From positions 610,940-674,939 of the forward strand of contig NZ_JAAHGO010000012.1 of assembly GCF_010672455.1 (NCBI RefSeq): a stretch of DNA of 64,000 nucleotides, in the 5' to 3' direction. The notes below the pieces were generated by a model. It searched no databases and was not told where the DNA came from. It worked only from the letters and a program-made list of their open reading frames with translations. Positions 4,972 through 7,757 of the stretch are shown here, piece after piece. The DNA is from Okeania sp. SIO2C9 (GTDB taxonomy: Bacteria > Cyanobacteriota > Cyanobacteriia > Cyanobacteriales > Microcoleaceae). How positions within the stretch are numbered: position 1 is the first letter of the stretch; the number at the start of each line of letters is the position of its first letter. The position numbers were made by a program, and so were the translations under genes.

Positions 4972-5757
4972 TTACTTCTTGATACAAAAATCACTAATCC
5001 AACCTCGCTGTACAAATAATGGAAGTAATGAACCCACATCAACTTTAGGCTCAAGATCGGCAACTTTTTCGCAAACAATTTCAAATGGATAATTCTCTTG
5101 AAAAATCTTTAGTAATTCCCATTCTTCATTATTTGGTAAATCAATTCGCATATCATAACCCTGTCGCCACAAAAATATTTTTACCCCACCTTCATCTAGA
5201 CTTACCATTTTATCCCCTTGATGATCGGGTTGATTGACTTGCCAAATCCTATGAATAGGATAAATAGACTCTAATAAAACACTATTTTTCGGTAAATACA
5301 AAATCAACTCTCCCCATTTTTCTTGAGGAATTTCACCCAAAGCTTGAAAATCTAAACCCTTTGTATCTTCACCACAAAAAACTCGATGCCAATGCCATTC
5401 TAAACGTGCTATATCTGGCAGATATGGTAAATGTTTTACTGGTTGAAAATCTGCAAGGAAATCTGCAAACTGTTCTCCATAATCTCCCAAATCAGGTGAT
5501 AAACAAGGAAACTGATTAATAAACTTTAATGCAGTTGCTTCAAAAAACTTTTCTCCCACTAACTGACATAACACAGGATAAATTGACGTTAATGTACTAC
5601 TCAAATTTCCAACAACATTACCTCTGTAAATTGCCAAACCTTCCGCAGGAGTTAAATTATTTGGCGCTTTAATATGTTTGCTTAATTCTTCTATACTAAT
5701 ACTGTCTTTTTTCCATACAGCTTGGAGAAATAAATTTTGTAGAGTAATATTTTCCAT
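4972..5757 (-). CDS. bufC: BufC/HvfC-type DUF2063 protein (MNIO partner)
   Basis: A 261-residue protein of the DUF2063 family, the partner subunit of MNIO (DUF692) enzymes in bufferin and related RiPP pathways. The N-terminal DUF2063 domain spans roughly residues 5-95, with the typical LAIYRGNVVGNLSSTLTSIY stretch followed by YPVLCQLVGEKFF and PYLPDIARLEWHWH. The C-terminal part (about 120-261) is the variable helical/WHTH-like region of BufC-type proteins. In characterised systems this subunit recruits the precursor peptide to the MNIO. The ATG at 5757 (MENITLQ) is preferred to the upstream TTG at 5763. It follows the MNIO gene on the same strand but is separated from it by ~400 bp of inserted repeats, so whether the two are still co-transcribed is open. 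Confidence 0.85.
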   Translation of the reverse strand: MENITLQNLFLQAVWKKDSISIEELSKHIKAPNNLTPAEGLAIYRGNVVGNLSSTLTSIYPVLCQLVGEKFFEATALKFINQFPCLSPDLGDYGEQFADFLADFQPVKHLPYLPDIARLEWHWHRVFCGEDTKGLDFQALGEIPQEKWGELILYLPKNSVLLESIYPIHRIWQVNQPDHQGDKMVSLDEGGVKIFLWRQGYDMRIDLPNNEEWELLKIFQENYPFEIVCEKVADLEPKVDVGSLLPLFVQRGWISDFCIKK

Positions 5758-5776
5758 GATCAAATAATTAATAATT

Positions 5777-6020
5777 AGGGTTTACGCTCAAAAGTCTTTT
5801 AGTAGGGGTAGGAGACAGGAGACAGGAGACAGGAGACAGGAGAAATGGCTTGGGAGCGAGGAGGTAGGAGCAAGAATTGTAAGAATGATTTTTATGCCCA
5901 ACTATGAGCCTAAAATACTAAATTCTTGAGCATGAATAGCTGAAAATTTTGCACTTTTTTAGACAAAAAAAAACTAAAGTTTTTATATGTAAATGCTTTT
6001 ATATTTAATCAGCAAGCCCT
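5777..6020. mobile_element. Non-autonomous relative of the IS5/IS1182-type element, in the bufB-bufC spacer
   Basis: Left end AGGGTTTACGCTC, right end TTTAATCAGCAAGCCCT; these match the ends of the transposase-bearing relic at 37981-39663 (AGGGTTTGCTGAATAAATC and GATTTATTCAGCAAGCCCT). The interior contains a GGAGACA array. An oppositely oriented relative is at 42153-42435. Confidence 0.75.
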
Positions 6021-6165
6021 AATTAAATAATTAAATAATTCAGGTTAAAAGCCTCCCCTTGAAAGGGGAAAAAAATAAATTTTTTCCTTAAGGGTCAATC
6101 CTCTCCCTTTTAGGGAGAGGTAATTATCCATTATCCATTATCTATTATCCATTATCCATTATTCA

Positions 6166-7083
6166 TTATTCATTATTCATTAATAAACTGACCTTTTGTA
6201 ATAATTTTTCAGCTTTATTTGCTTCTGCCATTAATACTTCAAAACTCGGAATATCTGTATCCCATTCGATTAAAGTAGGTACACTGCCAAACCTTACTAA
6301 AGCTTCTTCATACAACTCCCAAACTGGAGGATGTACAGGATAACCATGGGTATCTAATAGATAATTTTCCTTTTCTTCATAACCTGCTAAATGAATTTGC
6401 TTAACCCTTTTTGCTGGAATACCATCCAGATATTTTAGAGGGTCAATTCCATTATTTATAGCATTAACATAAAGATTATTTATATCCAGAAGTAAATAAC
6501 AGTCAGCTTTTTTTACTAATCCCTCAATAAACTCCCATTCCGACATAGTTGAATCTGTAAAAGTTAAATATGGAGAAGGATTTTCAATCAAAATTTGCCT
6601 ACCTAAAAATTCTTGTACTTGTAGGATACGAGATGCCACAAAATCCATCACCTTTTCCGTATAAACAAGTGGAATTAGATCGTTAAGATAGTGACCACTG
6701 ACAGATATCCAAGATAAATGGTCGGAAATAAAATCTGGTTCAACTTTTGCTGCTAAATTTTTTAGGCGAGTTAAATAATCTAAATTTAATGGGTCTGTTG
6801 AACCCAAAGACATTCCTACTCCGTGTAAAGTGACAGGATAATCTTGACGAATTTTTTCTAAATTAAATAGTGGCAAACCACCAGCACAAAAATAGTTATC
6901 TGATAAAACTTCAAACCAATTTACTTTCGGTTTTTCAGTCAGAATATATTGATAATGGAGGGAACGTAAAGCAATTCCTGAACCTTGAATTGATGATGAC
7001 TGAATGTAGGGTAAATCCCCCTTACTTTGCAACTTTTGATTAACATCAAATTCTAGTTTTTGAGATTCTATTTCTGTTGTCAT
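6166..7083 (-). CDS. bufB: MNIO (DUF692) enzyme, BufB/HvfB type
   Basis: A 305-residue multinuclear non-heme iron-dependent oxidase (DUF692, TIM-barrel fold). Family signatures appear in order: GSGIALR near residue 34, HGVGMSLGS near 91, SDHLSW near 120, ENPSPY near 167, DINNLYVN near 199, HLAGY near 231, DTHGYPVHPPVW near 244 and IEWDTDIP near 273. These supply the His/Asp/Glu ligands of the iron cluster. Characterised relatives modify cysteines of a small precursor peptide (for bufferins, to thiooxazole-type groups that bind copper). Here the likely substrate is the DUF2282 protein encoded just upstream. The first ~30 residues are less conserved; the ATG at 7083 is kept because no better start is evident. 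Confidence 0.9.
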   Translation of the reverse strand: MTTEIESQKLEFDVNQKLQSKGDLPYIQSSSIQGSGIALRSLHYQYILTEKPKVNWFEVLSDNYFCAGGLPLFNLEKIRQDYPVTLHGVGMSLGSTDPLNLDYLTRLKNLAAKVEPDFISDHLSWISVSGHYLNDLIPLVYTEKVMDFVASRILQVQEFLGRQILIENPSPYLTFTDSTMSEWEFIEGLVKKADCYLLLDINNLYVNAINNGIDPLKYLDGIPAKRVKQIHLAGYEEKENYLLDTHGYPVHPPVWELYEEALVRFGSVPTLIEWDTDIPSFEVLMAEANKAEKLLQKVSLLMNNE

Positions 7084-7187
7084 AAGCTGTTTTTATTTAA
7101 GAATAAAGAAGGAAGAAGGAAAGACCGAATAACTGGAAAAGTGGATTAGGATGAAAAGTTGTCGCTCCACATCTATAAACCCCAATT

Positions 7188-7296
7188 GGGTGCATTTCAT
7201 ATTTGCAAAAATACTTTTTTCCTATTCCCTATTCCCTGTTCCCTGTTCCCTAAAAACAATAATTTTTTGGCTTTATTCACGCATTGAGATGTACCC
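7188..7296. mobile_element. MITE with GGGTGCATTTCA ends, in the bufA-bufB spacer
   Basis: Left GGGTGCATTTCATATTTGC, right CACGCATTGAGATGTACCC. Same family as 4757-4925. It lies between the precursor gene and its modifying enzyme and accounts for about 110 bp of the ~390 bp spacer. Confidence 0.75.
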
Positions 7297-7472
7297 ATAA
7301 AAAATATGGCATTCTTGAGTTTATAGCTGATTTGATTCAACAGAGATAAATAGAGGAAAAGGGAACTATTTATAAAATATTTTCCTCTGCTCTACTCTAT
7401 GATTATCAAATCATAACCCTATTCAAAGATGCCACAAATTTTGTTATAATTGCTTAAATTCTTAGTTGATAT

Positions 7473-7757
7473 CTATTTAGATTCTGGAACATAAACTCTT
7501 GCACCAACAATTTTCTCGCAAGTACCCTCAGGAACATAAATCCACTCATTAGGATCTGAATCTACTTTAGCCTGACCCGAACAGGTATGGTCATTAGCAC
7601 CACAATCATTCATGCCAGCTTTAACAATACCAGCACATTTTTCCATACCTTCTTTACCAGCAAGAGCTTCTTGATTGCTAGAAACAGTAGCAAGACCAAC
7701 AGCTAGTACACCAGCGATCGCAGTAGATACAGCTAATTTTTTGTTGATGTTTTTCAT
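7473..7757 (-). CDS. bufA: Bufferin-type precursor (DUF2282, BufA1-like)
   Basis: A 94-residue exported small protein. Residues 1-33 form a signal peptide (KK then [17 protein letters not shown], ending EALA). The mature part has four cysteines at positions 41, 52, 59 and 80 in the DUF2282 arrangement ([35 protein letters not shown]). In the BufA1 family these cysteines are the residues modified by the MNIO enzyme and used for copper binding. The MNIO and DUF2063 genes follow on the same strand, which supports the assignment. The product is probably a periplasmic copper-buffering RiPP; this function is transferred from characterised proteobacterial members. The ATG at 7757 gives a textbook signal peptide. 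Confidence 0.88.

Follow-up and report, generated by a model that had tools for sequence, protein, structure and literature searches.

The window analyzed here, a 64,000-bp stretch of the Okeania sp. SIO2C9 genome (contig NZ_JAAHGO010000012.1, positions 610,940 to 674,939), carries a bufferin-1 locus that is both genuine and maintained in its cyanobacterial host. The kind of locus is itself already known: it encodes a small DUF2282 precursor (BufA), a maturase of the multinuclear iron oxidase family (MNIO; BufB), and a DUF2063 partner protein (BufC). Taking together gene content, gene order, conserved residues, the predicted BufC fold, selection, a conserved upstream box, and insertions of miniature inverted-repeat transposable elements (MITEs), we consider it likely that the locus is a regulated bufferin-1 (Buf1, captophorin class) copper-buffer cluster of Okeania. 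What the analysis adds is a wider cyanobacterial bufferin group, the box before bufA, and the history of the MITEs.

A complete bufferin-1 gene set in Okeania

An earlier note on this DNA had proposed that a DUF2282 precursor, an MNIO protein, and a DUF2063 protein encoded on one strand make up a bufferin locus. All three genes were found where it had placed them, in the order bufA-bufB-bufC among the open reading frames (ORFs) of the minus strand, and their Pfam families agreed with the proposal (Table 1). Every bufferin-1 feature open to sequence comparison or structure prediction was present, which supports the bufferin reading; metal, modification, and expression would be predictions of that reading. 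The 10.9-Mb host genome contained a single DUF2282 match and a single PF05114 match, and its BufB was 96 to 97% identical to that of Okeania hirsuta PAB10Feb10-1. The mechanical bufC ORF starts at TTG 5763; because congeners have MENI[TS]LQ in common from ATG 5757, the latter is the likelier start.

By eye, residues 1 to about 33 of BufA resemble a Sec-type signal peptide (MKNINKK, a hydrophobic stretch, and ALA followed by GK). In an alignment of 37 of the 81 precursors (80 loci plus the window), A33 was invariant and A31 was conserved in at least 90%. The four cysteines claimed previously, C41, C52, C59, and C80, were present in BufA and identical in all 37 aligned precursors, and the four-cysteine pattern held in 80 of 81 (exception, L149). 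EGKCG repeats were not present in bufA. A BufA structure model of middling confidence (pLDDT 73.2, pTM 0.52) supports no claim, and matches of the bufA profile (best E 0.033) were weak and taken as chance. Five loci (L169, L181, L183, L190, and L191) each encoded two or three bufA-like precursors, which suggests one maturase serving several substrates. Symploca sp. SIO1C2 carried a second bufA preceded by the box described below (L136:6001-6315); neither bufB nor bufC was detected within 12 kb of locus sequence, so this may be an orphan precursor.

BufB scored 368.3 bits on the NCBIfam model NF050167 (MNIO_BufB), for which the curated cutoff is 310, and fell under the NCBIfam cutoffs of the HvfB-type (PRK05409, 242 of 360 bits), ApyH, MbnB (equivalog TIGR04159, 63.8 of 325 bits), and ChrH models. 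It matched the solved MNIO structure 3bww at E 1.6e-50. Residues H87, H122, E167, D200, H231, D244, H246, and E273 were identical in all 59 bufA-linked BufB rows; we take such conserved histidine, glutamate, and aspartate residues to be those that bind the irons in MNIO structures.

The AlphaFold2 model of BufC (pLDDT 92.5, pTM 0.86) had as its top PDB folds TglI in TglHI (8hi7_A, E 7.9e-06) and NGO1945 (3dee, E 2.2e-05), the latter treated as an MNIO partner in PMC12452194 and PMC12668002. BufC is predicted to combine DUF2063 with a fold like the recognition element (RRE) of ribosomally synthesized and posttranslationally modified peptides (RiPPs). When bufC was compared with PDB sequences, hits to TAL effectors were dismissed as a repeat artifact (best single stretch, i-Evalue 14). 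A bufB-bufC fusion in Moorena bouillonii (L138), considered as a sign of coupling, was rejected because the open frame crosses an N gap (X residues). In two Arenicella metagenome-assembled genomes (MAGs), an MNIO and a DUF2063-like partner occupied one frame of 544 to 550 aa (L153:6291-7925 and L157:6337-7989), with no N gap and a second bufA-like ORF upstream.

Table 1. Features of the Okeania bufferin locus (window coordinates)
Feature	Position	Strand	Evidence and remarks
bufA, DUF2282 precursor, 94 aa	7473..7757	-	PF10048, E 2.6e-24
bufB, MNIO maturase, 305 aa	6166..7083	-	PF05114 (MbnB_TglH_ChrH), E 8.7e-106
bufC, DUF2063 plus predicted RRE-like partner, 261 aa from ATG	4972..5757	-	PF09836, E 2.8e-22
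Upstream box TCTCAG-N5-TCTCAG-N5-TCATAG	7830..7857	-	Half-site step 11 bp; ~100 bp before bufA; proposed response-regulator operator
MITE1, bufA-bufB spacer	7187..7297	.	Imperfect inverted ends TGGGTGCATTTCA / TGGGTACATCTCA; dispersed copies
MITE2, bufB-bufC spacer	5772..6025	.	Ends TAATTAGGG / CCCTAATTA; dispersed copies
Imperfect hairpin AGAGGAAAA / TTTTCCTCT, between bufA and MITE1	7335..7405	-	Candidate terminator/attenuator

Maintenance of the locus among relatives

Here, "Okeania genomes" means the five in the same genus group as the window; a further record named Okeania (SIO3I5, L132) belongs to a different group, G430. bufA was found in all five, the five loci examined were intact, and gene order was the same in the four congeners fetched. 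The four cysteines were kept in each of the five BufA proteins. Over the 10 pairs of these loci, the ratio of nonsynonymous to synonymous substitution rates (dN/dS) was 0.10 to 0.26 for bufB, 0.09 to 0.24 for bufC (up to 0.30 with L126 and L132 added), and 0.18 to 0.65 for bufA. bufB and bufC are under purifying selection, and by these comparisons the locus is evolutionarily maintained despite its MITE insertions.

Distribution and descent among cyanobacteria

DUF2282 was rare among 386 sampled cyanobacterial species, being detected in 2, whereas MNIO was detected in 28 (26 above the cutoff). Within the window's family, 11 of 61 genomes carried DUF2282, including all five of the genus group. 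Named genomes were scanned with 12 cyanobacterial precursors, and the best 80 of 312 confirmed relatives were used, a selection that favors close relatives, so that more distant loci may be missed. Thirty-three of the 80 were cyanobacterial, and the other 47 were by title mostly gammaproteobacteria. The 33 cyanobacterial loci came from MAGs and from 13 named genera: Okeania, Trichodesmium, Hydrocoleum, Moorena, Symploca, Oscillatoria, Hormoscilla, Cyanothece, Prochloron, Paraprochloron, Acaryochloris, Synechococcus, and Cyanobium. Many of these organisms we take to be marine.

The earlier note had also held that bufferins are described mainly from proteobacteria. This fits the texts examined, but other cyanobacteria also carry the locus. 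Titles and abstract openings returned for bufferin, DUF2282, DUF692, MNIO, or captophorin with cyanobacteria, and for Okeania with copper, contained no description of cyanobacterial bufferins. The available main text of PMC12452194 leaves cyanobacteria unmentioned; its Figures 1a and 3a, whose contents were not seen, are taxonomic distributions in which cyanobacterial members may be counted. PMC12668002 surveys Pseudomonadota and, in its available portions, mentions no cyanobacteria. PMC12636315 treats ChrH-type MNIOs of cyanobacteria, a different subfamily, and PMC12538549 and PMC11002830 mention cyanobacteria in other connections.

Of the 81 loci, 59 yielded a BufB sequence of at least 200 aa. 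After exclusion of five Arenicella fusion proteins and of nine MNIOs that had no bufA, a careful tree of 54 sequences united 29 cyanobacterial BufB and a Thiotrichaceae MAG (L160) in one moderately supported group (bootstrap 83, SH-aLRT 68) that neighbors gammaproteobacterial sequences; a subgroup of 22 rows including the window had support of 98/97. A quick tree of 68 rows recovered the same cyanobacterial group with L160 (SH-aLRT 91). Strict cyanobacterial monophyly was not recovered because L160 lies inside the group, where it may represent a back-transfer or a binning error. The simplest reading of the trees is a transfer of the bufferin cluster from gammaproteobacteria to cyanobacteria, a direction that we infer.

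A direct-repeat box upstream of bufA

The direct-repeat box before bufA is a new find of this analysis. Upstream DNA was conserved around TTTCTCAGGTGAATCTCAGATTTTTCA[AT]AGACT in Okeania, Hydrocoleum, and one Trichodesmium locus. Scored as TCTCAG-N5-TCTCAG at most 400 bp upstream, with a threshold of at least 10 of 12 matches, the box was present in 20 of 33 cyanobacterial bufA upstream regions and in none of 47 others (best of these, 9); the window's copy matched at 12 of 12. Thirteen of the 20 box loci had a third half-site, TCA[AT]AG, a further 11-bp step along, and in 13 of the 20 the box lay 96 to 101 bp before the bufA start. It was missing from the Acaryochloris/Synechococcus branch (eight loci), from the degenerate L149, and from L126, L130, L139, and L169. 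Synechococcus sp. SynAce01 carries two bufferin loci, and the box was not found there. Regulators of the OmpR/PhoB type typically recognize two half-sites spaced about 11 bp apart, and we propose that the box is the operator of a response regulator of this type. CopR was considered as that regulator and rejected by its site, no search for CopRS homologues having been made: the published site in Synechocystis (TTCATN4-5TTCAT; PMC4182526) is also a direct repeat and perhaps of the same class, but differs in sequence.

A sequence-only profile built from 16 upstream regions gave one strong match in the host genome (E 1.3e-16; next, 0.01), with 150 of 9542 candidates scored. Across 60 family genomes, matches with E ≤1.1e-10 coincided with bufA in 9 of the 11 that have DUF2282; one further match at this level, in G386, lay near the end of its stretch with no readable gene behind it. 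In 291 genomes of the order, all 14 matches with E ≤7e-10 stood directly before a BufA ORF, most of them in genomes that had supplied the profile and with few candidates scored per genome, and five weaker matches (E 2.6e-5 to 3.2e-4) had no BufA-like ORF in the fetched loci. Exact extended half-site pairs occurred at 28 sites in the 291 genomes, 8 before bufA and 20 not, with 6 sites in a reversed control.

Several sites other than the bufA box were recorded. The only other exact TCTCAG-N5-TCTCAG in the host genome, C57:3125-3141, precedes a gene for a 750-aa membrane glycosyltransferase-like protein (L205:788-3040, named by eye), and in G512 (L229) a protein that resembles this one by eye follows the same motif. 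The C57 pair was rejected as a second regulon member of the host genome, being absent from the 32 profile matches to E 10 (150 of 9542 scored). The next profile match there (L235, E 0.01) lies among ORFs resembling transposase OrfB and was not used. Genes near or behind weaker sites or exact pairs also included DM13 and PsbU genes, a gene that resembled spondin by eye but matched no Pfam family, and a pair of genes common to L254 and L259, two genomes of one genus group; none of these was used as support.

MITE insertions and wide spacers

Spacers of about 390 and 400 bp, each with a MITE inside and unusually wide for the operon, had been reported for this locus. We measured 389 bp between bufA and bufB and 402 bp between bufB and the mechanical bufC start (408 bp to ATG 5757), and both exceeded the medians of cyanobacterial and noncyanobacterial loci. 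Counting loci with both genes on record, the bufA-bufB median was 32 bp in 31 noncyanobacterial loci versus 210.5 bp in 30 cyanobacterial loci, single values being approximate since ORF starts are mechanical. bufB and bufC overlapped in 19 of 24 noncyanobacterial loci (median, -11 bp) and 16 of 27 cyanobacterial loci (median, -1 bp); because overlap is usual elsewhere, their separation in Okeania is probably derived.

Both inserted elements are MITEs, being short and noncoding, with terminal inverted repeats and many dispersed copies. The host genome contained at least 45 matching pieces of MITE1 (40 of 663 candidates scored; some copies fall in two pieces, and the window's own is included) and at least 48 of MITE2 (40 of 1196 scored). 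MITE1 occupied one site after bufA in all five Okeania genomes, split by a further insert in L123, L124, and L125 (by eye, with partial matches), and congeners with MITE1 at this site retain bufA, bufB, and bufC. MITE2 stood at the same site in L127 (O. hirsuta) and was absent there in L123, L124, and L125, whose bufB-bufC regions have other inserts or a shorter spacer. For MITE1, the relatives showed no clean empty site, and target-site duplications were not resolved at either element. The insertions may have altered cotranscription of the three genes, as the earlier note had suggested.

Between bufA and MITE1, the imperfect hairpin folded with a z score of -2.84 as a 71-nt piece and weakly (-0.99) as a 143-nt window piece. 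Longer pieces from congeners gave -4.58 (L123), -3.48 (L124), -3.15 (L125), and a weak -1.24 (L127), so that the hairpin was suggestive in four of six folds, with no T-run. It is an unproven candidate terminator or attenuator; as conjecture, it could yield more bufA than bufBC message.

Proposed mechanism and alternative explanations

In the copper-buffer scheme that we favor, the RRE-like domain of BufC would bind BufA and present it to BufB. As a multinuclear iron oxidase, BufB would convert the central C52 and C59 into 5-thiooxazoles, and C41 and C80 would form a disulfide. BufA would leave the cytosol via its Sec signal and bind excess copper beyond the plasma membrane, which means the periplasm and perhaps also the thylakoid lumen. 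Expression would be controlled at the direct-repeat box, where an OmpR/PhoB-type response regulator probably switches on bufA transcription. The MITEs lengthened the untranslated spacers, and since bufB and bufC are still under selection, they would still be read through or have promoters of their own. For Buf1, PMC12452194 describes modified central cysteines, the outer two in a disulfide, and thiooxazoles that sequester periplasmic copper.

Several observations weigh against this scheme. BufC reached 55.8 bits versus the HvfC equivalog cutoff of 142, and BufA reached 21.3 bits versus the BufA2 cutoff of 60. bufA evolves fast, with dN/dS up to 0.81 once L126 and L132 are added. doxX was not found on the window's contig, and the genome's two DoxX matches are on other contigs. 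The MITEs, together with the hairpin that follows bufA, could separate bufBC from transcription driven by the bufA promoter. L052/L149 (the same record) has no box and a split bufC; its precursor (L052:2557-2898) lacks C41, replaced by H, and C59, replaced by S, and contains a KAMNDCGA(F/N) stretch three times, so this locus would be either in decay or changed to a repeat-type precursor. In L048/L131, bufB and bufC are split, which may be an assembly error. Finally, a related marine cluster, mmr of Microbulbifer, was unexpressed under copper in its host (PMC12538549), so that the presence of a cluster need not mean its use.

A cluster decaying in Okeania itself, with MITEs isolating bufBC from the promoter of bufA and a peptide that no longer becomes modified, would accord with spacers far wider than in most relatives, with MITEs in both of them, and with the degenerate copy in L052/L149. 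We judge it very improbable: MITE1 is common to five genomes, yet dN/dS stays at or below 0.26 for bufB and 0.24 for bufC over the 10 pairs, the four cysteines persist in all five BufA proteins, and bufA and bufB are likewise far apart in Symploca (L139), Hormoscilla (L150), and Trichodesmium (L126 and L131). A bufferin cluster that serves another metal or stress (e.g., zinc, gold, or oxidative stress) rather than chiefly copper is less remote, though still unlikely. Gold-induced "gig" operons are bufferin clusters, and MerC fusions are also mentioned (PMC12452194); the box, too, differs from the CopR site of Synechocystis (PMC4182526). Against these points, DUF2282 products are reported to bind copper (PMC12452194 and PMC12668002), and the neighboring genes tested indicate no other metal.

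The reading of the box carries more doubt. That it is a promoter or 5' untranslated region element, or is kept by shared ancestry, instead of being an operator is a possibility that we take seriously without favoring it. In the BufB tree, most of the loci with the box are related to one another, L126, L130, L139, and L169 lack the box though they lie inside the box-bearing part of that tree, exact extended half-site pairs show no specificity for bufA (20 of 28 lie elsewhere), and most strong profile matches come from profile-supplying genomes. On the operator side, the box is sharply conserved while flanking DNA drifts, 13 of 20 loci continue its 11-bp period with a third half-site, and its distance to bufA is nearly fixed across several genera. 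A more ambitious form of the copper-buffer account combines an early transfer of bufferin-1 from gammaproteobacteria into the carrier group with a dedicated operator of two to three half-sites at an 11-bp period, through which an OmpR/PhoB-type regulator would mainly target bufA; the peptide would then buffer copper in an oxygenic phototroph, perhaps in the lumen beside plastocyanin. We offer this combination tentatively and consider it rather doubtful as a whole.

Neighboring features and significance

A tyrosine-decarboxylase-like pyridoxal phosphate enzyme with a C-terminal EF-hand pair is encoded next to bufA on the same strand (8029-10389, minus); the stretches fetched around the other four Okeania loci contained no match to it. 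A tandem GAGTTAT heptamer array lies in the intergenic region after an M48 peptidase gene (4113-4219).

Cyanobacteria are unusual in that copper must enter the cytosol for thylakoid plastocyanin, and CopM, CopBAC, and metallothionein are named as their copper-handling systems (PMC4284471). If the copper-buffer reading is true, a posttranslationally modified peptide that buffers copper in filamentous genera, among them Okeania, Moorena, and Trichodesmium, would be an extra copper-handling layer beside these three. The box offers a concrete handle, since it predicts the kind of regulator and makes induction testable, and comparing MITEs among relatives amounts to a natural experiment, on a small scale, in the extent to which a RiPP operon can absorb intergenic insertions.

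Comparison with known systems

The closest likeness is to Buf1 (bufABC) of Caulobacter vibrioides and others, with which the Okeania locus shares a DUF2282 precursor with a Sec signal and four conserved cysteines, a BufB-type MNIO above the curated cutoff, a predicted DUF2063-RRE partner, and the order bufA-bufB-bufC. It differs in its cyanobacterial host, in its wide MITE-bearing spacers, in its flanking genes, which as far as tested include neither doxX nor a sigma or anti-sigma gene, and in the direct-repeat box, which was not found in the 47 noncyanobacterial loci compared. The oxazolin/fontiphorin systems (HvfA/FonA) likewise pair an MNIO with a DUF2063-type partner and install thiooxazoles, according to the available literature text; unlike Okeania bufA, their precursors carry EGKCG repeats, and the Okeania proteins stay below the HvfB-type and HvfC cutoffs (242 of 360 and 55.8 of 142 bits). 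The methanobactin (MbnABC) and TglHI pathways share the MNIO superfamily, and the predicted Okeania BufC fold matches TglI, whereas BufB reaches 63.8 of the 325 bits set for MbnB. CopM/CopBAC/CopRS of Synechocystis handles copper outside the cytoplasm of a cyanobacterium (PMC4284471), the role proposed for the locus, but does so with other proteins and a CopR site, TTCATN4-5TTCAT, unlike the Okeania box.

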